Counted from the stretch's first letter, positions 27,801-38,969 are shown. The stretch is 38,969 nucleotides of DNA from Candidatus Alloenteromonas pullicola (GCA_018714785.1 DVMV01000012.1:1-38969), one strand, 5' to 3'. The notes: generated by a model from the letters alone, not told the origin. A program made the numbers and translations.

Positions 27801-28931
27801 ATGGTCTATCTAGACTTCGCCGCGACCGCCGCCCCCTCATCCATCGCCAAGGAGGAGTACCGCCGGGTCAGCGACCTGTATTTCGGCAACCCCTCATCGC
27901 TGCATGAGGCGGGATACCAAGCCAAGCGCATCTTCGATGATGCCTGCAAGCGGGTGCTTTCCTGCACCGGATTGTCGGCCACCCATCGCTGCGTATTCAC
28001 CTCGGGGGCCTCGGAGTCGAACTCGATGGCGATCATCGGGTCGGCGCTCCGCTACCGCAACCGGGGGAACAAGATCCTATATGGCGCCTCCGAGCACGCC
28101 TCGGTTAAGGAAAGCTGCCTCTACCTAGCCAAGCTTGGGTATGAGCCGGTCGAGCTCCCGCTGCGCGACGGGGCCATCGACATGGACGCGTTGGAGGGGT
28201 CGATCGACAAGCAGACCATCCTGCTCTCCGCGATGTCCAGCAACAACGAGACCGGGGCGCTTACCGACCTCAGTAGGCTGCGGGAAATCCGCAGAACCCA
28301 TCCCAAATGCTTGCTTTTGGTCGATGCCACCCAGAGCATCGGCAAATTGCCACTCGACCTTTCCTTCGCCGATTTCATCTCCTTCTCGGGGCATAAGATC
28401 GGGGCCTTCAAGGGAAGCGGGTGCCTGCTAATCCGCAAGGGGCTGCTCATCGATCCTATAATCCATGGGGGCTCGCAGCAGGATGGGCTCCGGGCTGGGA
28501 CCATCGACGTCGCCGGCGCCAGCGCCCTTTCGGTTGCCCTTGAGGACGATTTCAAGAACATCGAGCCCAATCTGCGCCACGCCAAGGAGCTCAAGGCGAC
28601 GCTGCTGCAGGGCCTTTCCGGCCTAACCGACCTGGTCGAGGTAAATTCGCCAGAAGGCGCCTCACCTTACGTGGTGAGTTTCTCCTTGCTCCATCACCGG
28701 GCGAGCGTCATCGTCGAGGGGCTATCCGAGCGCGGGTACTGCGTCTCAAGCGTCTCGGCCTGCTCATCGAAGGTCGACGCCTCCTCCTATGTGCTCAAGG
28801 CCATGGGGAAGGACGACAGGATCGCCGCCAACGCCATAAGGGTGTCGTTCGGGAAGACGACCACCGCCGGGGAGGTCGAGGGATTCGCGGCTTGCCTTGG
28901 CAAGCTGCTGCAGGAGGTAAAGAGGATATGA
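27801..28931 (+). CDS. Cysteine desulfurase (NifS/IscS family)
   Basis: PLP enzyme that takes sulfur from cysteine and passes it on as a persulfide, here most likely to ThiI for 4-thiouridine in tRNA (as NifZ does in Bacillus). 376 residues. YLDFAATA at the N-terminus, GASEHASVKES with the PLP-stacking His, VDATQSIGK with the PLP Asp, the PLP Lys K199 in FSGHKIG, and the catalytic Cys C321 in SACSS are all present. ATG 27801 is 1 nt after the ezrA stop; a long upstream extension of the frame overlaps ezrA and is not coding. The stop overlaps the thiI start (ATGA). Confidence 0.93.
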   Translation: MVYLDFAATAAPSSIAKEEYRRVSDLYFGNPSSLHEAGYQAKRIFDDACKRVLSCTGLSATHRCVFTSGASESNSMAIIGSALRYRNRGNKILYGASEHASVKESCLYLAKLGYEPVELPLRDGAIDMDALEGSIDKQTILLSAMSSNNETGALTDLSRLREIRRTHPKCLLLVDATQSIGKLPLDLSFADFISFSGHKIGAFKGSGCLLIRKGLLIDPIIHGGSQQDGLRAGTIDVAGASALSVALEDDFKNIEPNLRHAKELKATLLQGLSGLTDLVEVNSPEGASPYVVSFSLLHHRASVIVEGLSERGYCVSSVSACSSKVDASSYVLKAMGKDDRIAANAIRVSFGKTTTAGEVEGFAACLGKLLQEVKRI

Positions 28932-30118
28932 AATGCGATTGCCTGATGATCCATTATGGGGAGCTGAGCACCAAGGGGGAGAACCGGAAGTCCTTCATCA
29001 GCTGCTTGACCCGGAACTGCCGCGCCGCGCTTAAGGGGACCGACTGCGTCCTTTCCGGGAGGCGTGACCACCTCTACGTCGAGCTTAACCTCACCTCCGA
29101 GCAGGAGGCGGTGAATAGGCTATCCAAGGTGGCTGGCATACAGCGCATATCCCCGGTATACAAGGTCGACAAGGGAATCGAGTCGCTCAAGGCCGAGGCG
29201 ATCGCGGCCATGAAGGAGTCGGGGAAGCATCGGTTCAAGGTATCCTGCCACCGCCCCGACAAGTCCTACCCGCTTTCATCGTATGATGTCTGCTGCGCCC
29301 TAGGCGACGCGGTGCTCGATTCGGTCGAGGGATCGGAAGTCGATCTCCACGACCACGAGGTAAACCTTAAGGTCTCGATCAGGGAGGACGCCGCCTACCT
29401 GTCCACCAAGACCTACCCTGGACTCGGCGGGTATCCTTTGGGGATGGCCGGCAAGGTCACGCTGCTGCTATCCGGCGGCATCGATTCCCCGGTCGCCTGC
29501 TATAAATTGCTCCGCCGCGGCATAAAGGTCGACTGCCTGCATTTCGCCGCGCCGCCTTATACCTCGGGGCAAGTCATATACAAGCTGATCGACATACTGA
29601 AGGAGCTATTGCCTTATCAGGCCGACTTCCGCCTCGACGTGTTCCCCTTCACCAAGATACAGGAGGAGATCTACAAGCACGCCCCGGAGCCGTACTGCAT
29701 CACTATAATGCGCCGGATGATGCTGCGGATCGCCGAACGCGTGGCCAAGGCCCGCGGGTCGCTTTCGATAGCGACCGGCGAGGACGTTGGGCAGGTGGCG
29801 AGCCAGACCCTCGACTCAATCTACGCGATAAACGAGGTCACGAGCTTCCCGGTGCTCCGCCCGCTATGCGTCGAGGACAAGGTCGACGTCATCGACCTCG
29901 CCAAGAAGATCAACACCTTCGACATCTCGATAAGGCCATATGAGGACTGCTGCACCATCTTCAAGCCCAAGCGGCCCAAGACCAAGCCCGACCTCGCCCA
30001 TTGCAAGGAATTCGAGGTGCGGTTCGACTTCGCCTCGCTCATCGAGGAGGGGCTGAAGGGCATAAAGACCATCTACGTTAGCCTTGATGGCGTCAGGGAA
30101 GAAGAGCCCCGCCAGTAG
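28928..30118 (+). CDS. thiI: tRNA 4-thiouridine synthetase ThiI
   Basis: Adenylates U8 of tRNA and inserts sulfur; may also supply sulfur for thiamine thiazole. 396 residues: N-terminal ferredoxin-like domain (IHYGELSTKGENRKSF), THUMP domain (about 60-165) and the PP-loop ATPase SGGIDS at 182-187. A C-terminal DCCTIFKPKRPKTKP region near 340-355 carries the conserved cysteine. No rhodanese domain, as in Bacillus ThiI, so sulfur is passed by the adjacent desulfurase. ATG 28928 overlaps the upstream stop; the frame is open further upstream but overlaps the desulfurase gene. Terminator follows. Confidence 0.95.
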   Translation: MKCDCLMIHYGELSTKGENRKSFISCLTRNCRAALKGTDCVLSGRRDHLYVELNLTSEQEAVNRLSKVAGIQRISPVYKVDKGIESLKAEAIAAMKESGKHRFKVSCHRPDKSYPLSSYDVCCALGDAVLDSVEGSEVDLHDHEVNLKVSIREDAAYLSTKTYPGLGGYPLGMAGKVTLLLSGGIDSPVACYKLLRRGIKVDCLHFAAPPYTSGQVIYKLIDILKELLPYQADFRLDVFPFTKIQEEIYKHAPEPYCITIMRRMMLRIAERVAKARGSLSIATGEDVGQVASQTLDSIYAINEVTSFPVLRPLCVEDKVDVIDLAKKINTFDISIRPYEDCCTIFKPKRPKTKPDLAHCKEFEVRFDFASLIEEGLKGIKTIYVSLDGVREEEPRQ

Positions 30119-30133
30119 CGAATCCAAACCGAG

Positions 30134-30165
30134 GCGCTTATCCGGAATCCCGATAAGCGCTTTTT
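30134..30165 (+). terminator. Intrinsic terminator after thiI
   Basis: GCGCTTATC (30134-30142), 9-nt loop, GATAAGCGC (30152-30160), then TTTTT. Confidence 0.92.
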
Positions 30166-30175
30166 AAACGGAAAA

Positions 30176-30673
30176 TTGGCGGTTTCAGCCAGCCGCCGCA
30201 TTTCCGAATGCTATTTCGACGGCCTCGGCGTGGAAAAGGACGTCGAAGAAGGATATCGGCATCTGCAACGGGCCGCCGAGTTAGGCGACCCGAGCGCCCA
30301 GCTCGATCTATCCATCGCCTATTCTTTGGATGGCGGATGCCTGAAATGGGACTGCGCGCTGTCTTTGAAGTGGCTAACCCTTTCCGCTAAGCGGGGATGC
30401 AGGCTTGCGCTTTTCTTCCTTGGGAGGAGGTACCTTAGCGGCTTTTTGGCCCCATTAGACCGCAAAAAGGGTTTGGATTGCCTAGCCGAATCCGCCGAGA
30501 AAGGATTCCCGCTTGCCATATATTGGGCCGGGCTTTGCTGCCGCCTAGGGGTTGGGGCAAACAAAGACGATGAGATGGCCTTGCATTAACTGCGCCTTGG
30601 GGCGGATGGGGGATGCCAGGAGGCCATCGATCTGCTGGCTGAGATGGAAAGCGAAAATAAAAGCGCCCATTGA
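30176..30673 (+). pseudogene. Decayed Sel1-repeat protein gene
   Basis: The frame encodes Sel1/TPR-like repeats: SECYFDGLGVEKDVEEGYRH, LQRAAELGDPSAQLDL, LAESAEKGFPLAIYWAGL, LCCRLGVGANKDDEMALH. It is stopped by TAA at 30587-30589 in the middle of a repeat and resumes in the same frame with LRLGADGGCQEAIDLLAEM to TGA at 30671-30673. Family spacing places an aromatic codon where the TAA stands. At the 5' side no ATG or ribosome binding site exists; the only start is TTG 30176 within a repeat, just after the thiI terminator, so the N-terminal part is missing too. Sel1 proteins serve in protein-protein contacts; this copy is probably dead. Confidence 0.75.
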
Positions 30674-30679
30674 GGCGCT
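30653..30679 (-). terminator. Second terminator after rplT
   Basis: Minus strand AGCGCC (30679-30674), 6-nt loop, GGCGCT (30667-30662), then TTTATTTT. It overlaps the end of the Sel1 remnant. Confidence 0.65.
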
Positions 30680-30687
30680 GATGAAGC

Positions 30688-30712
30688 AAAAAGCCCCGCC
30701 TTCCGGCAGGGA
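30688..30712 (-). terminator. First terminator after rplT
   Basis: Minus strand stem around loop GGAA with GGCGGGGC (30700-30693) as the 3' arm and G-U pairs or a bulge in the 5' arm, followed by TTTTT (30692-30688). Confidence 0.8.
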
Positions 30713-30717
30713 CTTTC

Positions 30718-31077
30718 TTAGGCGGCGATGGCCTTCTTGGCGCCTTCGACTAGGGAGGCAAAGGCCTTCGGATCGTTGATGGCGAGCTCGGAGAGCATCT
30801 TCCGGTTGAGGGCGATGCCTTCCTTCTTCAAGCCAGCCATGAACTTGCTGTAGGAGATGCCGTTGAGGTGGCAAGCGGCGTTGATGCGCTTGATCCAGAG
30901 CTTGCGGAAGTCGCGCTTGATGAGGCGGCGGGACTCGTAGGCATAGCGGAGGGAGTGGCAGACCTGCTCTTTGGCGGTCTTGAACAGAAGGTGCTTGGAG
31001 CCGAAATAGCCCTCAGCGGCCTTCAATATCTTCTTGCGGCGGGCGCGGGTGACGGTTCCGCCTTTGACTCTTGCCAT
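30718..31077 (-). CDS. rplT: 50S ribosomal protein L20
   Basis: Early-assembly 23S rRNA-binding protein and, in Bacillota, the repressor of its own operon through the mRNA leader. 119 residues, the usual length. [43 protein letters not shown] and NRKMLSELA match the family throughout. Last gene of infC-rpmI-rplT, 14 nt after rpmI, followed by two successive terminators. Confidence 0.98.
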
Positions 31078-31091
31078 TGTCTATATCCTCC

Positions 31092-31286
31092 TTACTTGCT
31101 GATCATGAACTTGATCCGGCTGTAGTCGGTCTTGTCCATCATGCCCGAGCGGCGCAGCTGACGGCACTGCTTGGCAGTCTTATAGGGCGCGTGGTGGCCC
31201 TTGAAAGCGTGAATGAATTTGATTTTCCCGTTGCCGGTGACCTTGATACGCTTCATCAAGGACCGGTTAGATTTCATCTTCGGCAT
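31092..31286 (-). CDS. rpmI: 50S ribosomal protein L35
   Basis: Small basic ribosomal protein. 64 residues: MPKMKSNRSLMKRIKVTGNG, then a basic region and KTAKQCRQLRRSGMMDKTD near the end. Middle gene of the infC operon, 11 nt after infC. The ribosome binding site is AGGAGG in the 11-nt gap. Confidence 0.97.
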   Translation of the reverse strand: MPKMKSNRSLMKRIKVTGNGKIKFIHAFKGHHAPYKTAKQCRQLRRSGMMDKTDYSRIKFMISK

Positions 31287-31297
31287 TTTGTTTCCTC

Positions 31298-31855
31298 CTA
31301 CTTCTTGGCTTTCTTCGTGACGATCGCGGCGTAGACCTTACCTTCCCAGAAGGGGGCCTTCTCGATCGTGATGGCGGTGGACTCCTCCAATACGGAGATG
31401 AACCGTTTCAGCAGCTCCTCGCCCAGATCCTGGTGGGCCATCTCCCTTCCCTTCAAGACGACGCGGATGTGGACCTTGTCGCCATCGTCGAGGAAGTTGA
31501 CGGCATGCTTGGCTTTGGTGCGGAGATCGTGGTCGCCTATCGAGATGTGCAGCTGAATCTCCTTCAGCTGGGTGGCTTTGGCGTTCTTCCTTTGGGCGCG
31601 CTCGCTCTTCTGCTTCTCGAACCGGTACTTGCCGTAATTGAGTATCTTGCAGACGGGCGGATTGGCCTGCGGGGCGACGCAGAACAGGTCGAGGTTGTGG
31701 CTGGCGGCGAGCTCGTTGGCGGCCCGGCTGCTCATCCTCCCCATGTTCTCACCGTTCGGCCCAATAACCATGACTTCCGGATAGCGGATGTGCTCATTGA
31801 TGGGGTCGAAGCGCTTCTGCGGACGACGCTGATCGTTTCTATCGAAGTATCCTAT
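31298..31855 (-). CDS. infC: Translation initiation factor IF-3, probable ATA start
   Basis: Binds the 30S subunit and checks start-codon and initiator-tRNA pairing. From ATA 31855 the product has about 185 residues: N-domain with FDPINEHIRYPEVMVIGPNGE, a linker rich in Lys/Arg, and a C-domain with EIQLHISIGDHDL, VHIRVVLKGREMAH. No ATG precedes the N-domain in frame. TTG 31891 opens the frame but lies inside a terminator hairpin. A strong GGAGG lies 8 nt before the ATA, and infC genes are known for rare start codons (ATT, ATC, ATA) that let IF-3 repress itself, so ATA 31855 is my choice. Operon with rpmI and rplT. Confidence 0.93.
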   Translation of the reverse strand: MGYFDRNDQRRPQKRFDPINEHIRYPEVMVIGPNGENMGRMSSRAANELAASHNLDLFCVAPQANPPVCKILNYGKYRFEKQKSERAQRKNAKATQLKEIQLHISIGDHDLRTKAKHAVNFLDDGDKVHIRVVLKGREMAHQDLGEELLKRFISVLEESTAITIEKAPFWEGKVYAAIVTKKAKK

Positions 31856-31990
31856 TTGTTTTCCCTCCAAGCGAAGAAAGCCGGGAAGCAACGCTCCCCG
31901 GCAAAACTATCCATGTTAGTGGTAGCTCCTAGCCAACCTCCATTGGAAGTCTGGCGAGCCCGGGAGGGCTGCTTTCTACGTCTTTCGACG
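31856..31990 (-). promoter_or_regulatory. infC operon leader with L20-type attenuator
   Basis: The ~135-nt leader ends in a terminator-like hairpin. On the minus strand GCCGGG (about 31902-31897) pairs with CCCGGC (31886-31881), followed by TTTCTTC, just before the infC ribosome binding site. Upstream of it are further GC-rich segments (CAGCCCTCCCGGGCTCG, GGCTAGGAGCTACC) that could form the anti-terminator or L20-binding fold. L20-controlled attenuation of infC-rpmI-rplT is established in Bacillus; identity with that leader class is inferred from position and hairpin. Confidence 0.65.
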
Positions 31991-32035: not shown

Positions 32036-32458
32036 TCAAAGTCCGGCAAAGGCCAGTGAGGCCGCGGTTTGGCTAGACGAGATGATGGTCTCGTTGTCAA
32101 GGTTGAGGCGGCCCAAAGTGAACAGATAGCTAAGGCCCGCCACCGCGAACGCGAAGAAAAGCAAGGCGGCGATCGAGCCAACCGGTTTGCTATACCTTGG
32201 CAGGAAAAGCGAAGCGTGCCCAGCGTAGAGGAACACGCAAGCCAAGCAGAGGCAGCTTCCTATCGTATGTATCAGCTTGGTTTCAAACTGGGGATAGCAC
32301 TTAAGCAGGAAAAGGCAAAGGAAGGCGCCGAAAAGGACGGTGCAAGCAAAACCTACCCCAAGGCTTAGGCAGACAGCTATCTTCGAAAACTTCAGGAAGT
32401 GGGCGGCGAAGGCGCAAAGGAAAGCCAAGGCGAAGAAAGCGAAAAGGGCGAAATTCAC
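32036..32458 (-). CDS. Four-helix membrane protein, unknown function
   Basis: 140 residues, nearly all hydrophobic, with four probable transmembrane helices (about 3-20, 26-50, 63-83 and 92-112), then a short polar tail. Cys-rich helices (CLSLGVGFACTV, CLCLACVFLY). I recognise no family. Its start overlaps the stop of the Fic-like gene by 4 nt, so it is coupled to it. This suggests a two-gene unit, perhaps a membrane partner or target of the Fic-like protein. Function unknown. Confidence 0.7.
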   Translation of the reverse strand: MNFALFAFFALAFLCAFAAHFLKFSKIAVCLSLGVGFACTVLFGAFLCLFLLKCYPQFETKLIHTIGSCLCLACVFLYAGHASLFLPRYSKPVGSIAALLFFAFAVAGLSYLFTLGRLNLDNETIISSSQTAASLAFAGL

Positions 32459-33417
32459 TTTGCCTTCCTCCGGTAGCGCTGGGTCCTGTCAGTTGGGGAT
32501 AGGGGATTGCTCATCTCGATCGCCCCTTCCTCAAGGGCGGGCTTTAGGTAGTTCTTGTGCAGCCCAAGCCGGGACTTCAGCCCCAATAAGGACAATAGCT
32601 CGGAGGCCGAGTAGAACCTGCCCTCCTCCATTAGCGAGAGCATGCGTTTGGCCTGGTTGGTGAGTCCGCCGCGGGCCCGCAGGCTTTGCCGGCACTCCAA
32701 ATCTATAGCGTCCCCGATCGTTTGCAGATACTCAATCAGGAACGGCGACATATCGCCCTTCTCGACCGACCTGGATATCGCGTCCTTAAGGAGCTTTTCG
32801 CTTTTCTCCAGTTTCGGCAGCAAAAGGATGGAGGATAGCTCCTTTCGGTAGCCGCACAGCATCCCTTTGGCGTAGAGGCAGGCCAGCAGGAATGTGTGCG
32901 AGCTGTAGGGCATTATGGCGGGAATCATGAAGAGCAGAACACCCGAAAGCAAGAGGGGATGGACTTTTCCCTTGGCTTGCTTAAGGAAGCGGAACATGCC
33001 AGAGAGCAGCTCCTTGATCTTAGGATGGGAAGGGATTGGGTAATCGTAGCCGGCAACCTTCCTCGACAGACGATTGGGAACATCCTCCCCGAAGACGGAA
33101 TCCTCAAATAGTTTGATGAATGAGTCGGCGTAGGGATCCATCTTGGCGGATTTGTAGAAAAGGGAAGCGGTGGACGAAGCTATCGGGTGGGCGCTTATGA
33201 TCTCCAATGTATAAAGAGCCCTGGCCTGGGATGGCGTCAGCTTCACATCGATCAAACGGCAATAAGCCTTTGCCTCCTCCGCGGCCGACTCCTTGCCTTC
33301 CCGTTGATTGGCGATGCAAGAAAGCCTTCCGACCTTAAAACAGCACTCTGACAAAGCCATAACCACGGCATTAGACACCGAGAATGAGGCTTTATATGGA
33401 GGCAATATCTTATCCAT
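32455..33417 (-). CDS. Fic-family protein with degenerate active site
   Basis: Fic proteins transfer AMP or related groups to target proteins. The 320-residue product has the typical Fic start (MDKILPPYKASFSV), the PxHPKIKELLSGMFRFL and VHPLLLSG helices that precede the active site, SPFLIEYLQTIGDAI, and a C-terminal winged helix (LGLKSRLGLHKNYLKPALEEGAIEM) exactly as in Fic/HTH proteins. The active-site loop HPFxDGNGRxxR is replaced by MPYSSHTFLL (169-178): catalytic His, Asp/Gly/Asn and Arg are all gone. The SxxIEGN inhibitory segment is absent too. Start: Met13 of the longest frame (ATG 33417) gives the family N-terminus; TATTAT ends 7 nt before it. Probably a pseudoenzyme or DNA-binding remnant. 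Confidence 0.78.
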   Translation of the reverse strand: MDKILPPYKASFSVSNAVVMALSECCFKVGRLSCIANQREGKESAAEEAKAYCRLIDVKLTPSQARALYTLEIISAHPIASSTASLFYKSAKMDPYADSFIKLFEDSVFGEDVPNRLSRKVAGYDYPIPSHPKIKELLSGMFRFLKQAKGKVHPLLLSGVLLFMIPAIMPYSSHTFLLACLYAKGMLCGYRKELSSILLLPKLEKSEKLLKDAISRSVEKGDMSPFLIEYLQTIGDAIDLECRQSLRARGGLTNQAKRMLSLMEEGRFYSASELLSLLGLKSRLGLHKNYLKPALEEGAIEMSNPLSPTDRTQRYRRKAK

Positions 33418-33481
33418 CGCTACCATAATACACTCTTTTTGAGTTTGATGCATATTTACTTACATATTTTTTTACTAATTC

Positions 33482-33756: not shown

Positions 33757-34407
33757 ATGACAAAAACTTCTAAAAGAAAGCTGATTGTCACCAGCGCACT
33801 AGTGCTAGGCGCCGTGGCGACCGTCGGCGCGACCTTCGGTGCCTTGATTCTAAACGGCGGCGACAAGACCGATACCGGTGGACTTGGAATCGGCACTGTG
33901 GAGATCAAGAACCAGGTTGTTTCGCTTGCCGTTGAAGTCACCGATGCTACTATTGTCTTAGACGGAAAAGAGCCAGACGACTCTTATACTGCCGATGATC
34001 TCCTGCATGGCGATGTGGCAAACGATAGGGAATTCTCCCTTAAATTCACCGTGACCGGTGATGTTAACGCTTGGACGTCGCTAAGCGTTTCCTTTGCTTG
34101 GGACGTCGGGAAAGCTGCCGCTGATACCTATCTTGATTTGCCCGATTCAGATACGATTGAGAAAAGCGTTCAAGGTTCTTCAACCAGCGGCGATGGTTCT
34201 TCCACGGTGTGGACTTATACTAAAGCCTACACAATTTCCTGGGACGCGACCACCTACAGCGGCGGAATATTGAAATATATCAACGATCAGTACAACCAAT
34301 CGAAAGATGATGCTTCTGCTTTGGCAAAGTTGAATGATTTTAAGGCGGCTGTCGAAGCCTCAAGCCTCACCGCAACAGTCACCGTCAATCTAGCAACTGG
34401 CGCCTAA
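33757..34407 (+). CDS. TasA/CalY (camelysin)-like exported protein
   Basis: 216 residues. Basic N-terminus and hydrophobic segment (about 8-32) form a SipW-type signal peptide (KLIVTSALVLGAVATVGATFGA). It is followed by TGGLGIGTVEI, similar in place to the first strand of TasA (ASGTLDL), and an Ig-like beta domain with NDREFSLKFTVTGDVNAWTSLSVSF. This layout matches the TasA/CalY family of amyloid-like fibre proteins or metalloprotease-like camelysins. The next gene is a SipW-type peptidase, which supports the call. Codons are clearly less C-ending than in neighbouring genes, suggesting separate origin or selection. Start: Met18 of the longest frame, chosen for the signal peptide and the ribosome binding site. 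Confidence 0.65.
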   Translation: MTKTSKRKLIVTSALVLGAVATVGATFGALILNGGDKTDTGGLGIGTVEIKNQVVSLAVEVTDATIVLDGKEPDDSYTADDLLHGDVANDREFSLKFTVTGDVNAWTSLSVSFAWDVGKAAADTYLDLPDSDTIEKSVQGSSTSGDGSSTVWTYTKAYTISWDATTYSGGILKYINDQYNQSKDDASALAKLNDFKAAVEASSLTATVTVNLATGA

Positions 34408-34445
34408 TAAGGGTGTGCCATGCTTAGCATGCCCTTATTTATTTC
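34406..34445 (+). terminator. Hairpin between the TasA-like gene and the signal peptidase
   Basis: AATAAGGG (34406-34413) pairs with CCCTTATT (34432-34439); inside, CATGC-TTA-GCATG (34419-34431) extends the stem, with a 5-nt bulge on the left. T/A-rich TATTTC follows. It overlaps the stop of the first gene and covers both possible ATG starts of the next (34420, 34429). It could lower transcription or translation of the downstream genes relative to the exported protein. Confidence 0.55.
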
Positions 34446-35313
34446 AACAGCCTTCGCCATCACGTTAGCGGTGGCGATACTCGCCTTGATAATCTTGACC
34501 TTAGTCCTGGTATTCGTCGGGATATCGGCCAAGAATGGCATCAAACAAGGCGAAGAGGATTTCGACATACTGGAGGAAAAAGTGGGTCGGGCCAGCCGAA
34601 GCCCAGCTCGAAAGGGCTGGGCCAAGGCCGGATCGATACTGGCCGACATCGTCATCGCGGTGCTGGCAATTGGATTCCTAGGCTTGCTTTTCACCAGACT
34701 CATGCCCTCAATCGGCATGCCATACGTATTGGAGGTAGTGGCGACGCCCTCGATGGCGAGCGTGCTGCCTCAAAACCAATCGCACGTGCGCGAGGGCGAT
34801 AAGCCAATCAAGGTCGATGACCTTATAGCGGTGAAGCGCATCGATTCGCTAGACGAGATAAAACTATACGACATAATCAGCTACGACAACCCGGATGGCA
34901 GGAACTACATCCACCGGGTAGTGGAAATAGCAGAGAGCTACGTCATCACCCAAGGCGACGCGAACAACGTCGATGATGGGGTAAAGGTGACCCTCGACAT
35001 GATCGTCGGGGTCTATACCGGATTCCAGATCCCCTACATCGGAACCGTGACCTTCTATTTGCAAAGCGATTACGGGATCCTTGGCATGAGCTGCCTGGCC
35101 TATGTGATAATAGCCGCAGAGATATACTTCGCCGCCATCGGGTCGGCTAGGGAGAAAAGGCTCAAGTCCTACGACGACATATTCGCCTCCACCGGGGCGA
35201 GGATCGTCACCTATTCCGACCCAAATGGGACCATATCGTTCAATAAAGACTATGTGGGCACCATCGACGAGAGCAAGACGATGCCGACAAAAGACATAAC
35301 CTTCAAGAGGTAA
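34420..35313 (+). CDS. SipW/ER-type signal peptidase I
   Basis: Membrane signal peptidase of the Ser-His-Asp (ER/archaeal, SipW) type, probably cleaving the TasA-like protein encoded next to it. 297 residues with helices at about 8-35, 72-93 and 217-240. Catalytic Ser is S111 in VVATPSMASV, His is H165 in YIHRVVEI (His in place of the Lys of ordinary signal peptidase), Asp is D180 in TQGDANN. The insert after S111 and the ~45-residue cytosolic loop after helix 1 are longer than in Bacillus SipW (about 190 residues). A C-terminal cytosolic tail of ~55 residues is also extra. Start ATG 34420 has a weak AAGGGTG upstream. Confidence 0.85.
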   Translation: MLSMPLFISTAFAITLAVAILALIILTLVLVFVGISAKNGIKQGEEDFDILEEKVGRASRSPARKGWAKAGSILADIVIAVLAIGFLGLLFTRLMPSIGMPYVLEVVATPSMASVLPQNQSHVREGDKPIKVDDLIAVKRIDSLDEIKLYDIISYDNPDGRNYIHRVVEIAESYVITQGDANNVDDGVKVTLDMIVGVYTGFQIPYIGTVTFYLQSDYGILGMSCLAYVIIAAEIYFAAIGSAREKRLKSYDDIFASTGARIVTYSDPNGTISFNKDYVGTIDESKTMPTKDITFKR

Positions 35314-35323
35314 GGAGCGTCAT

Positions 35324-37138
35324 ATGAACATATTCGCATTTAGCCCCAAGCAAAAGGCAATCACCGGATCGACGGTGCTGTTCGCCTTGCTTTCGTTCTT
35401 CGTGGGTGCTGGGTTGGACACAAATGCGGGCATCTTCTATGACAACAACATAATCGCAAAGATAGGGGAGCTCATGTCCTTTACCGATGCGAAGCCTTCC
35501 ATATCCGGCTATATCCTCTTGCTCTTCATCGTGCTGTATCTTGTCGTTGGCATAATCTGCTTGTTTGCCGCGATAAACAAAGTCAAACTGGCAGGGCAGA
35601 CCCTGAGGTCGTCGAAGCTGCTTCCATACGTTATTTGCTTCGGCGTCGCCGGACTGATCGTCTTCTTCGGCATCGGGTCGCTGTTCTCGATTCCCTTTGG
35701 CGCTGACGGGTATTTGGAAAACGTCACCTTCGTAGGCCAGTCGCTTACTATTTCCATCCTTGCCTTTGTTGCGATTTATGCCATTGTTTTTGCCATTTAT
35801 CTGCTTATCGCCTCGCTTCCTTCCATCAATCGCGAGACCGTCAAGGCAATGGGTGGCAAGAAGCAGAAAGACGGGCCAAAAGACGATTTCGAATCGCTTG
35901 AGGAAGAGGTCGAGAAGCGGAAGGAAGAGGATGATGTCACCACCTCATTCGATGAGAAGAAGGCCGGCAAGCCCGGAGCCGTGGCCAGCGTGGCCGGCGT
36001 TGGCACCGCGGTCATTTCCGGCGGGAACGGGGAAGCCTACGACAAGAAAAAGGTCTTCCCGAGCCTAGTGGAGATCGATGAGCGGTTCGTGCTTGGCGAC
36101 CAGCAGCTGCCGTTCCTGCCAAGCGGGCTGACTTTGCAGCGTTTGGTCGAGGATCTGCAGAACTACCTATCGACCAGCTGCGAGCTCTACTATTCGCTTG
36201 ACGACCTCGCGATGTACGTCTCGGCCATCTTGACCACGCCGCTCACCATCCTGGAAGGCGTATCCGGCACCGGCAAATCCAGCTTGCCCAGGTACTTCTC
36301 CAAGTTCATCGGCGAGACGGCTTATTTCGAGTCCATCCAGATGACATACAAGGACCGGGATGACCTGCTTGGATACTACAACGACTTCACCGGCGTCTAC
36401 CACGAGACCGAGTTCCTCAAGCGGCTTTACGAATCCACCTACCGGGCCAACCACCTCAACATCATGGTTCTCGACGAGATGAACATCTCCCGCATCGAGT
36501 ACTACTTCGCCGACTTCCTCTCGGTCATGGAATTCCCCGAGCCCGATAGGAAGATCCACCTCATGAACATCCCCGGCGATGCCCCGGCCCATCTAGGCAA
36601 GGGCGATCTGCAGATCACCCCGAACACTCGCTTCGTCGGGACCGCGAACACCGACGACTCGACCTTCGCCATCACCGACAAGGTCATCGACCGCGCCATC
36701 GTGCTCGACTTCGACGAGTATCAGTCCAAGATCGAGTTCTCGACCAAGGCCAAGCCGATCGCCCTTTCCTACAAGGACCTCGCATCGATGGCCGAGGAGG
36801 CCAGGAAGAAGGAGGGCAACCGCTTAGGAAAGGAAGACCGCCGGAAGTTCGGCGAACTGCTTAAGAAGACCGGCGAGCTCATCGGCGTCAAGACCGGCAA
36901 CCGCTTGCTGGTGCAGGCCGATATGCTGGTCCCGGTATACAAGGCGATGCGCGGCAATAAGGAAGGCGCGCTCGACTACCTATTCGCCTTCAAGGTCCTC
37001 CGCAAGGCCAAAGGAAGGGTCGATATGTCCTATCTAGGCGGGCTCTCCGACCTACGGGAATACGTCGTGAAGAACTACGGCAACGCTTTGCCGCACACCC
37101 TAAATGCGATCGACTCCGAGCTAAGGATGGCTAGATGA
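35324..37138 (+). CDS. Membrane-anchored McrB-like AAA+ ATPase/GTPase
   Basis: 604 residues. Four transmembrane helices (about 15-31, 62-84, 100-122 and 138-165) are followed by a charged, coiled linker (KDDFESLEEEVEKRKEEDD) and a Gly/Ala-rich stretch. The AAA+ module of the MoxR/McrB group follows: Walker A GVSGTGKSS (312-320), Walker B MVLDEMN (381-387), the McrB-type sensor motif TANTDDSTF (440-448, compare MNTADRS) and Arg457 in KVIDRAIVLDF. McrB hydrolyses GTP to drive the McrC nuclease; here the nucleotide cannot be told. The membrane domain is not part of ordinary McrB. Start ATG 35324 follows AAGGAG. Overlaps the next gene by 4 nt. Confidence 0.82.
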   Translation: MNIFAFSPKQKAITGSTVLFALLSFFVGAGLDTNAGIFYDNNIIAKIGELMSFTDAKPSISGYILLLFIVLYLVVGIICLFAAINKVKLAGQTLRSSKLLPYVICFGVAGLIVFFGIGSLFSIPFGADGYLENVTFVGQSLTISILAFVAIYAIVFAIYLLIASLPSINRETVKAMGGKKQKDGPKDDFESLEEEVEKRKEEDDVTTSFDEKKAGKPGAVASVAGVGTAVISGGNGEAYDKKKVFPSLVEIDERFVLGDQQLPFLPSGLTLQRLVEDLQNYLSTSCELYYSLDDLAMYVSAILTTPLTILEGVSGTGKSSLPRYFSKFIGETAYFESIQMTYKDRDDLLGYYNDFTGVYHETEFLKRLYESTYRANHLNIMVLDEMNISRIEYYFADFLSVMEFPEPDRKIHLMNIPGDAPAHLGKGDLQITPNTRFVGTANTDDSTFAITDKVIDRAIVLDFDEYQSKIEFSTKAKPIALSYKDLASMAEEARKKEGNRLGKEDRRKFGELLKKTGELIGVKTGNRLLVQADMLVPVYKAMRGNKEGALDYLFAFKVLRKAKGRVDMSYLGGLSDLREYVVKNYGNALPHTLNAIDSELRMAR

Positions 37139-38238
37139 TAGGGCAATCCCAACCCTACATAGCCACTAGATGCGGCTTCTCTGACCTCCCGTCGTGCCGG
37201 GATGGTTTGGGGCTGCTCAATCAGATAGCCAGGCAATCCAGAAAAGGCATCAAGGTCGACTCGGAGCTTAAGGACGTGTACAAAGCCAATCGCTTCACTC
37301 CGTTGCTGTTCGCCTTGACCGCGAAGGAGTCGAAGAACTTCTCCTTCCTAAACGGCAGGCTGACCCCCAAGAAGGTCTACTGCGAGGTCATCGACGACAA
37401 GGAGGAGATCTACGAGAACCGGTTCGCCGCCTATTGCCTGCGCAAGCTTTCCGAGGAACTGGAGGTGGCTTACGCAAGGTTCCGCGAAGACAGCAGCCTC
37501 CTTCACTCGGTCGGAAACATCGGCTATTCGAGGTGGGGCAATGCCAAGAACGCTTTGTCGTTCCTGAATGAACACAAGGGATTCGCTGATGGCCTCGAGG
37601 AAGTATCGAGGCTTAGGAATGAGGCCTTACTACTTCAGTCGACATCTTTCTATTCCTCGCTTAAGCCACTGCAGGAGGAGGAAATCCATTCGACGAACGC
37701 CTTGAGCTACGATCCGCTTTACGGGGCGCTATACCGCCTATACCTCGGATATAAGTCTAAGAAAGACGATGGGGAGATAGAGTCCCGCCTGCTGAAAGAC
37801 CTCAATAAATCCGCAAAACTCGCCCAAGGCAAGCCGAATTCGCTTCCAACAGCCTATTTCTACGACGATTTCCTCCTAAAGCTAAGGCATTACGGCGACT
37901 GCATCGAGATCCGCATCACCGACGTGTTCGACCAATATAGCCGCAAATACGAGCTGCGCCTGGACCCTGGCTTCTTCTATCCCTATATGTCTCTCAAGGG
38001 CGAGGGAAGGGAAAGGAAGATCTCCCTTTTCGGGGCGGAGGACTATTCATTGCCTCTGCTAACCATGTGCGCCAAGCTCGAGGCATCCTCCATCTGCCCG
38101 CTTTGCGGAGGGCGCATAGGGGATGGCGGCTTTTGCAGATCCTGCCATGCGGGTTATCATTATTACGAAGGGGCCAATGGCCGTTCTATGTGGGCTTATG
38201 ACCTTCCTTTTGCGACCAAGGAGAGTAGCTATGAATAA
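37135..38238 (+). CDS. DUF2357/McrC-like protein with C-terminal zinc ribbon
   Basis: 367 residues, encoded directly after the McrB-like ATPase with a 4-nt overlap, the usual place of McrC. The N-terminal half includes EEIYENRFAAYCLRKL (91-106), which matches the YENRF motif of DUF2357 proteins that pair with McrB-type ATPases. I find no D...(D/E)xK nuclease motif of the McrC type in the second half. Instead the C-terminus has a zinc ribbon, C321-x2-C324-x9-C334-x2-C337, then an aromatic-rich tail. So it may be an adaptor or sensor instead of a nuclease. The 8-nt overlap with the lipoprotein gene indicates one operon. Confidence 0.65.
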   Translation: MIGQSQPYIATRCGFSDLPSCRDGLGLLNQIARQSRKGIKVDSELKDVYKANRFTPLLFALTAKESKNFSFLNGRLTPKKVYCEVIDDKEEIYENRFAAYCLRKLSEELEVAYARFREDSSLLHSVGNIGYSRWGNAKNALSFLNEHKGFADGLEEVSRLRNEALLLQSTSFYSSLKPLQEEEIHSTNALSYDPLYGALYRLYLGYKSKKDDGEIESRLLKDLNKSAKLAQGKPNSLPTAYFYDDFLLKLRHYGDCIEIRITDVFDQYSRKYELRLDPGFFYPYMSLKGEGRERKISLFGAEDYSLPLLTMCAKLEASSICPLCGGRIGDGGFCRSCHAGYHYYEGANGRSMWAYDLPFATKESSYE

Positions 38239-38969
38239 ACTGAAGAGCATATTGCTAGGCTGCCTCGCGGCGTTGCCGCTAGCCTCCTGCGGCCTCATGG
38301 GTACCCAGGAAAGCCTCTATATCGAATCCGTCACCGCGGTCCCGCAGGAAGATGGGTCCATATTGGTCACCATCACCTTCACCGACGAGGACATGAAGCC
38401 GGTCACCTTCAACGTTCCTAAGGGCGACACCGGCGAGCAGGGCCCTCAGGGCGTTGGCATCGCCTCGGTCGAATCCGCGCCAAGCGAAGACGGCAAAGAC
38501 CTCGTTATAACCGTCACCTACACCGACAGCACCTTGGAGCCTTCGGTCTGGGAGATACCTAACGCCAACTCGATCGAGAATTTCTCGTCTTCATATGATG
38601 CCGAGACCGGCAATACGACCGTCACCATCACAACCTCCGATGGCGAGGACCACACTTTCATAGTCCCTAAAGGGAAGGATGGCGTCGGGATTGCCTCGGT
38701 CACCCAAACCGAGGAAGAAAGCGGCGACATCGTCATCACCATTACATACACCGATGTGACAATCCCACCTACTGAGATCAGGCTGCCATATAAAAACGGC
38801 GAGGATGGTAGAGGAATTGCCTACATTGAATCTAGCCAAGATTACGAGAACTACTACCTCACTATTCACTATACGAGCGGCGAGGAATCGCAGACCCTCG
38901 TTTTCCCTTTGCCGGATGTTGAGCAAGGCACTAGATGGGATTGCGGAGACGGATATCCTTCGAGTTACG
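38231..38969 (+). CDS. Repeat lipoprotein with collagen-like segment (3' end outside window)
   Basis: The open frame runs from ATG 38231 to the window end (246 codons visible). Signal sequence and lipobox LASC put the lipidated Cys at residue 20. Then come about five tandem modules of ~38-45 residues (near 31-75, 77-114, 115-153, 154-195 and 196-234). Each is a pair of strands of the type DGxxLVITxTYTD...IPKG; three boundaries carry Gly-rich turns such as GKDGVGI or GEDGRGI, and the first carries a short collagen-like GDTGEQGPQG run. Such modules occur in surface and adhesin-type proteins. Overlaps the upstream gene by 8 nt. Function unknown; surface exposure inferred. Confidence 0.82.
   Translation, partial: MNKLKSILLGCLAALPLASCGLMGTQESLYIESVTAVPQEDGSILVTITFTDEDMKPVTFNVPKGDTGEQGPQGVGIASVESAPSEDGKDLVITVTYTDSTLEPSVWEIPNANSIENFSSSYDAETGNTTVTITTSDGEDHTFIVPKGKDGVGIASVTQTEEESGDIVITITYTDVTIPPTEIRLPYKNGEDGRGIAYIESSQDYENYYLTIHYTSGEESQTLVFPLPDVEQGTRWDCGDGYPSSY

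Follow-up and report, generated by a model that had tools for sequence, protein, structure and literature searches.

A conserved gene set of uncultured gut bacteria joins a SipW-type signal peptidase to a membrane McrBC-like pair and suggests a DNA-defence motor reused at the cell surface

The window, the stretch of 38,969 bases analyzed here, is a whole contig (G000:C7) from an 86%-complete, 1.05-Mb MAG of Candidatus Alloenteromonas, an uncultured gut Bacillota. Its last part holds five plus-strand open reading frames, found where an earlier note on this DNA had placed them and with the overlaps of 4 and 8 nt given there:

33757..34407, plus strand: exported protein, 216 aa, with a SipW-type signal peptide (KRKLIV..GAVATVGATFGAL); the predicted fold is an Ig-like beta-sandwich
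34420..35313, plus strand: SipW/ER-type signal peptidase, 297 aa, from family profiles and Ser/His/Asp residues
35324..37138, plus strand: membrane McrB-like AAA+ NTPase, 604 aa, from four predicted membrane helices and motifs
37135..38238, plus strand: McrC-like DUF2357 protein, 367 aa, with a match to the McrC fold over residues 6-205 and a C-terminal four-Cys zinc ribbon
38231..38969, plus strand: repeat lipoprotein, lipobox LPLASC, cut by the contig end

The contig ends within the fifth gene of the operon, of which the window shows only the 5' half. A promoter scan upstream of position 33757 gave no promoter-like match. The divergent neighbor (32455-33453, minus strand) encodes a protein with a Fic-like C-terminal domain (3.7e-15); the closest relatives within the genus keep it beside the operon, and it is possibly a regulator. 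Further upstream (28892-31891) we read from the sequence a ThiI-like protein, ribosomal proteins L20 and L35 and initiation factor IF-3. Within the genus the operon adjoins such translation genes, in similar order, and does not lie in a defence island.

The NTPase bears out its earlier description as a four-helix membrane AAA+ protein with McrB-type motifs. Membrane helices are predicted at residues 13-31, 64-82, 103-121 and 145-163; these and a linker make up the N-terminal part, where there is no DNA-binding or modified-base-binding domain. By the positive-inside rule, mean loop charges across 50 relatives (+3.4, -0.4, +2.8, -1.2) assign loop 2 and the motor domain, like the N terminus, to the cytosolic side. 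The motifs are Walker A GVSGTGKS, Walker B VLDEMN, N442-T-D444-D445 and D456-R457; both Walker motifs, NxD(D) (N442, D444, D445) and DR are invariant in 25 aligned relatives. The NxDD pattern was counted in 77 of 94 NTPase rows, 15 rows being missed by the text pattern. This GTPase motif is thus the NxD variant and not the NxxD of McrB; NxD, usually with E or D next, is the mark of a major branch of McrB proteins (PMC11090510). Among profiles, AAA_5 matches weakly, and the PADLOC candidate PDC-M26A matches the window protein (6.9e-35) and all 25 aligned relatives (best 1.4e-42). A sequence search of the PDB with the NTPase profile or domain returned nothing.

The DUF2357 protein gave a confident structural model (mean pLDDT 88.9), for which the top four VIA matches are all McrC chains (6ut5, 6ut7, 6ut6 and 6hz4, Z 8.1-7.3), aligned over about residues 6-209 in three of the four. 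Foldseek found no significant match to the model; its first two rows were a model of YdjA-YdiS, which we take to be a DUF2357/McrB-like pair, and McrC 6hz4. The Pfam DUF2357 hit 39 of 61 relatives of this partner (best 3.1e-13). A Z score near 8 is middling when taken alone, but with all four top rows being McrC and DUF2357 found in 39 of 61 relatives, we regard the predicted McrC fold as firmly assigned. Cysteines 321, 324, 334 and 337, the C-terminal zinc ribbon, are invariant in the 61 sequences, so that the DUF2357-like protein with a zinc ribbon in the McrC position, as first read from the sequence, is borne out on both counts. These four cysteines are the only invariant residues beyond residue 193, and no D, E or K is conserved there among the 61. 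We read this as loss of the nuclease; judged by its sequence, the partner is apparently nuclease-less. An active restriction nuclease was accordingly considered and rejected on motifs, there being no conserved PD-(D/E)xK residues in the C-terminal half. PDC-M26B, the companion profile in PADLOC, did not match the window partner and matched one of the 61 relatives, weakly (4.2e-4).

The signal peptidase matches the NCBIfam profiles SigPepSipWBacil (4.9e-14) and TIGR02228 (2.2e-12), and its Ser111, His165 and Asp180 are invariant in a 21-row alignment, which upholds its naming as SipW-type. Members of the operon family carry an extra N-terminal membrane extension and a long tail. The peptidase is probably dedicated to the exported proteins of the operon, which occur in relatives as one to seven paralogues in tandem. 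At four loci (L082:2856-8862, L080, L087 and L113) six to seven paralogues with SipW signals stand directly before SipW, an arrangement reminiscent of antigenic or subunit variation. The earlier description of the exported protein as TasA-like is supported by its SipW-type signal peptide and its gene position; for its mature domain none of our searches found a TasA match, a result short of disproof. No Pfam or NCBIfam model matched the window protein; a sequence search of the PDB found no TasA homology beyond the signal peptide; and profile comparison with the camelysin/TasA proteins of PF12389 aligned a 29-column signal region alone. The structural model (pLDDT 81.4) shows an Ig-like sandwich whose last strand is preceded by two helices; Foldseek and VIA matched many generic Ig-like sandwiches to it equally (Z about 6), with no TasA listed. 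At one further locus (L163, G204), a PF12389 camelysin/TasA-family gene scoring above the Pfam cut-off lies in a SipW-NTPase-McrC-SipW operon; camelysin/TasA-family proteins are therefore neighbors of another branch of the same NTPase.

A search for the gene order in related genomes had been proposed in the earlier note. We searched 145 related genomes, fetched the neighborhoods and clustered their genes; the order recurs in dozens of genomes and is not the single occurrence that the note had named as a refutation. Relatives of the membrane NTPase are present in 98 of the 145 and take two forms, of about 600 aa (four membrane helices) and about 515 aa (one). A SipW match lies within 6 kb of 36 of the 37 four-helix NTPases, and the 37th is at a contig end (hence 36/36 testable cases), where the chance expectation is about 1.4% per gene. 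NTPases of other forms have a SipW match nearby in at least 33 of 89 cases, and these genomes also have SipW homologues that do not lie near the NTPase.

Profile HMMs built for this purpose were applied to the 50 named loci of sufficient length, and all eight families of the full set were present in 46. The families are the exported proteins with SipW signals, SipW, the membrane McrB, McrC/DUF2357, an ABC ATPase, an ABC permease, a surface protein of about 810 aa and the repeat lipoprotein. In two of the remaining four loci the contig starts just ahead of SipW; the other two look like fused ABC open reading frames. The usual order with the four-helix form is one to seven exported proteins, SipW, NTPase, DUF2357, ABC ATPase, permease, anchored surface protein and lipoprotein; in the clade of the window the lipoprotein, a small exported protein and a surface protein of about 900 aa precede the ABC genes. 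Little space separates the genes (median gaps 2-4 nt), and all products except the cytosolic DUF2357 protein and ABC ATPase are exported, membrane or lipid-anchored. The lipoprotein of the window does have its lipobox, but it is not the last gene, as the operon runs several genes further in relatives, where the lipoprotein is about 370 aa long with a Listeria-Bacteroides (Flg_new) repeat domain at its end. We did not find the ABC permease elsewhere in the window's own 86%-complete MAG, an absence for which the incomplete MAG and the contig end offer the best explanation.

Carriers are MAGs of Bacilli, Clostridia, Christensenellaceae and Oscillospiraceae, together with a MAG named Anaeroplasma bactoclasticum; within the genus of the window the four-helix form is patchily present. 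The 36/36 testable cases and the 46 full sets among 50 long loci confirm that the export genes and the McrBC-like genes form one conserved unit, and on the same counts we rejected a chance neighborhood of the two. The operon is real, conserved and underexplored.

Sister modules occur in a different filament context. In an Acholeplasmatales genome (L135:8126-16904) the NTPase/DUF2357 pair lies between type IV pilin genes (N_methyl 2.4e-9), about 20 bp from the next. At L146:4020-12432 the pair comes directly after PilB, with PilC and a prepilin peptidase upstream and prepilin-like genes before those, and a PilB-type neighbor was also found at L145, L148, L150 and L151. In a tree of the NTPase domain L135 falls inside the SipW-linked clade, where several inner supports are moderate; this placement suggests transfer of the module from one filament type to another.

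The genome of the window also has a paralogous operon on another contig (G000:C41, L062), with a one-helix AAA protein of 517 aa, an McrC of 711 aa and a SipW of 261 aa. In its same-genus homologue (L063) the next gene encodes an EAL-domain protein, a c-di-GMP phosphodiesterase (1.9e-66), which suggests c-di-GMP control of the paralogous operon; the McrC there (L063:6981-8969, minus strand) has a long charged stretch resembling a coiled coil, and where the zinc ribbon would be it has a lysine-rich tail.

The NTPase thus stands beside two unrelated filament systems, both with peptidase-processed, membrane-held subunits, and the simplest common denominator is filament assembly. On the sequence evidence, our best reading of the McrBC-like pair is a biogenesis motor for a surface fibre or pilus, and not a DNA restriction system. 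We give a probability of roughly 60% to the proposal that the operon produces surface fibres and mounts them on the cell, or does so for some other polymer built from exported proteins that SipW has processed. Co-occurrence alone does not make the fibre the target of the NTPase, and the SipW homologues remote from the NTPase, like its PDC-M26A match, count against the proposal. The McrB domain would form a hexameric ring under the membrane, into which the DUF2357 protein may insert as McrC does, switching on or transmitting nucleotide hydrolysis. Movement of the ring, passed on through the membrane helices, could then act on the membrane-held preproteins, on SipW or on the base of the fibre, and the outcome would be release, ordering or growth of the putative fibre. 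The part that in McrBC works on DNA would here be working on a membrane assembly. More tentatively, and with odds somewhat short of even, McrBC-type rings may constitute a new class of membrane-embedded motors for assembling extracellular filaments, exchanged between fibres processed by SipW and type IV pili.

The earlier note had offered two guesses, a fibre-assembly machine powered by an AAA+ motor and a membrane-bound defence device; the first is favored here and the second loses ground, given that there is no recognizable nuclease and that the pair belongs to an eight-gene export and surface set. A possible objection is nevertheless that the pair watches over the envelope, or over the fibre as a potential receptor for phages, and responds to disturbance by killing or blocking. 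The PDC-M26A matches in all aligned relatives speak for such an anti-phage device, as do the patchiness of the four-helix form within the genus and the restriction-type nature of its McrBC and CoCoNuT relatives (PMC11090510). No effector domain of any other kind is recognizable either, however, nearly every locus shows the eight-gene association, housekeeping genes flank the locus, and the weak match to one of 61 partners leaves little of PDC-M26B. We consider this objection unlikely to be correct, though it is the foremost one. PDC-M26 is itself only a candidate name, for which we know of no test.

Next comes the possibility that the NTPase is a MoxR-like quality-control or maturation chaperone, with SipW, the ABC transporter or the membrane-held preproteins as the clients it extracts or remodels, and does not drive fibre growth. 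A membrane AAA+ protein of AAA_5 kind (on its weak match) beside a peptidase and a transporter would suit this role, as would the added N-terminal membrane part and long tail of SipW; the sister modules, on the other hand, accompany type IV pili that have their own peptidase, and fit a filament role better than a SipW-specific one. This too we think improbable, and slightly the more so. That chance has made mere neighbors of the export set and of a three-gene McrBC-lipoprotein unit distinct from it is very improbable: adjacency alone does not establish function, but Bacilli, Clostridia and Acholeplasmatales keep the same order, with identities of about 31-67%.

Returning to the fibre-assembly reading, the closest described system is CoCoPALM, which was named in a 2024 census in one paragraph, with details deferred, and is uncharacterised (PMC11090510). 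It already pairs an McrBC-like NTPase with a signal peptidase gene, so that the earlier remark, that its author knew of no described system joining them, is not supported. Both systems have an NTPase of NxD type fused to one or more membrane segments, an McrC/DUF2357 partner, an adjoining gene of the signal peptidase family (on our side in every testable four-helix case) and a suggested link to pili. They differ in that the CoCoPALM NTPase has an FtsB-like single helix and a coiled coil where ours has four helices. The McrC of CoCoPALM carries a fused coiled coil; the partner in the window, 367 aa with a zinc ribbon, shows no evident addition of this kind, its long helices being those of the fold itself. 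The full operon, with exported proteins, ABC transporter, surface protein of about 810 aa and lipoprotein, is absent from the text of the CoCoPALM paper (PMC11090510). Since the window system shares the NxD and signal-peptidase features but its NTPase lacks the single helix with coiled coil, it is a four-helix variant close to CoCoPALM and not a member; the one-helix operon at C41 fits the CoCoPALM description better. Our literature search for CoCoPALM in the sense of the census found the census paper and its preprint only, with no later paper; it found no paper joining TasA with McrB as a system and no mention of PDC-M26.

With McrBC of E. coli and T. gammatolerans the window pair shares the AAA+ McrB domain and an adjacent DUF2357 partner of McrC fold, but it has NxD for NxxD, membrane helices for the DNA-binding domain and no conserved nuclease residues for PD-(D/E)xK, and it lies in a surface gene context. 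With the TapA-SipW-TasA operon of B. subtilis the likeness is a SipW-type peptidase beside exported proteins with SipW-type signals; that operon is without NTPase, DUF2357 protein or ABC transporter, and in ours no TapA was identified and the TasA likeness found lies in the signal peptide. We know of no ATPase in B. subtilis TasA assembly, a point against our reading. In published work donor-strand exchange builds the TasA fibre, TapA serving as its chaperone (PMC9674648, PMC10151520). The analogy we propose with type IV pili (PilB/PilC) is that of a cytosolic NTPase on a membrane platform moving membrane-held subunits, although PilB, PilC, prepilin and prepilin peptidase are all missing from the operon of the window.

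The joining of a signal peptidase with an McrBC-like pair is therefore not unprecedented; what is new here is the cargo, the gene set and the nuclease-free state. To our knowledge no motor has been described for fibres of SipW/TasA type, and no nuclease-free McrBC with a characterised task other than on nucleic acids. The eight-gene set makes the motor idea directly testable. If the idea is true, some defence-candidate labels (PDC-M26, McrBC-like) would need re-reading, and uncultured gut bacteria, Acholeplasmatales among them, would have turned a restriction motor family to assembly work at the cell surface.
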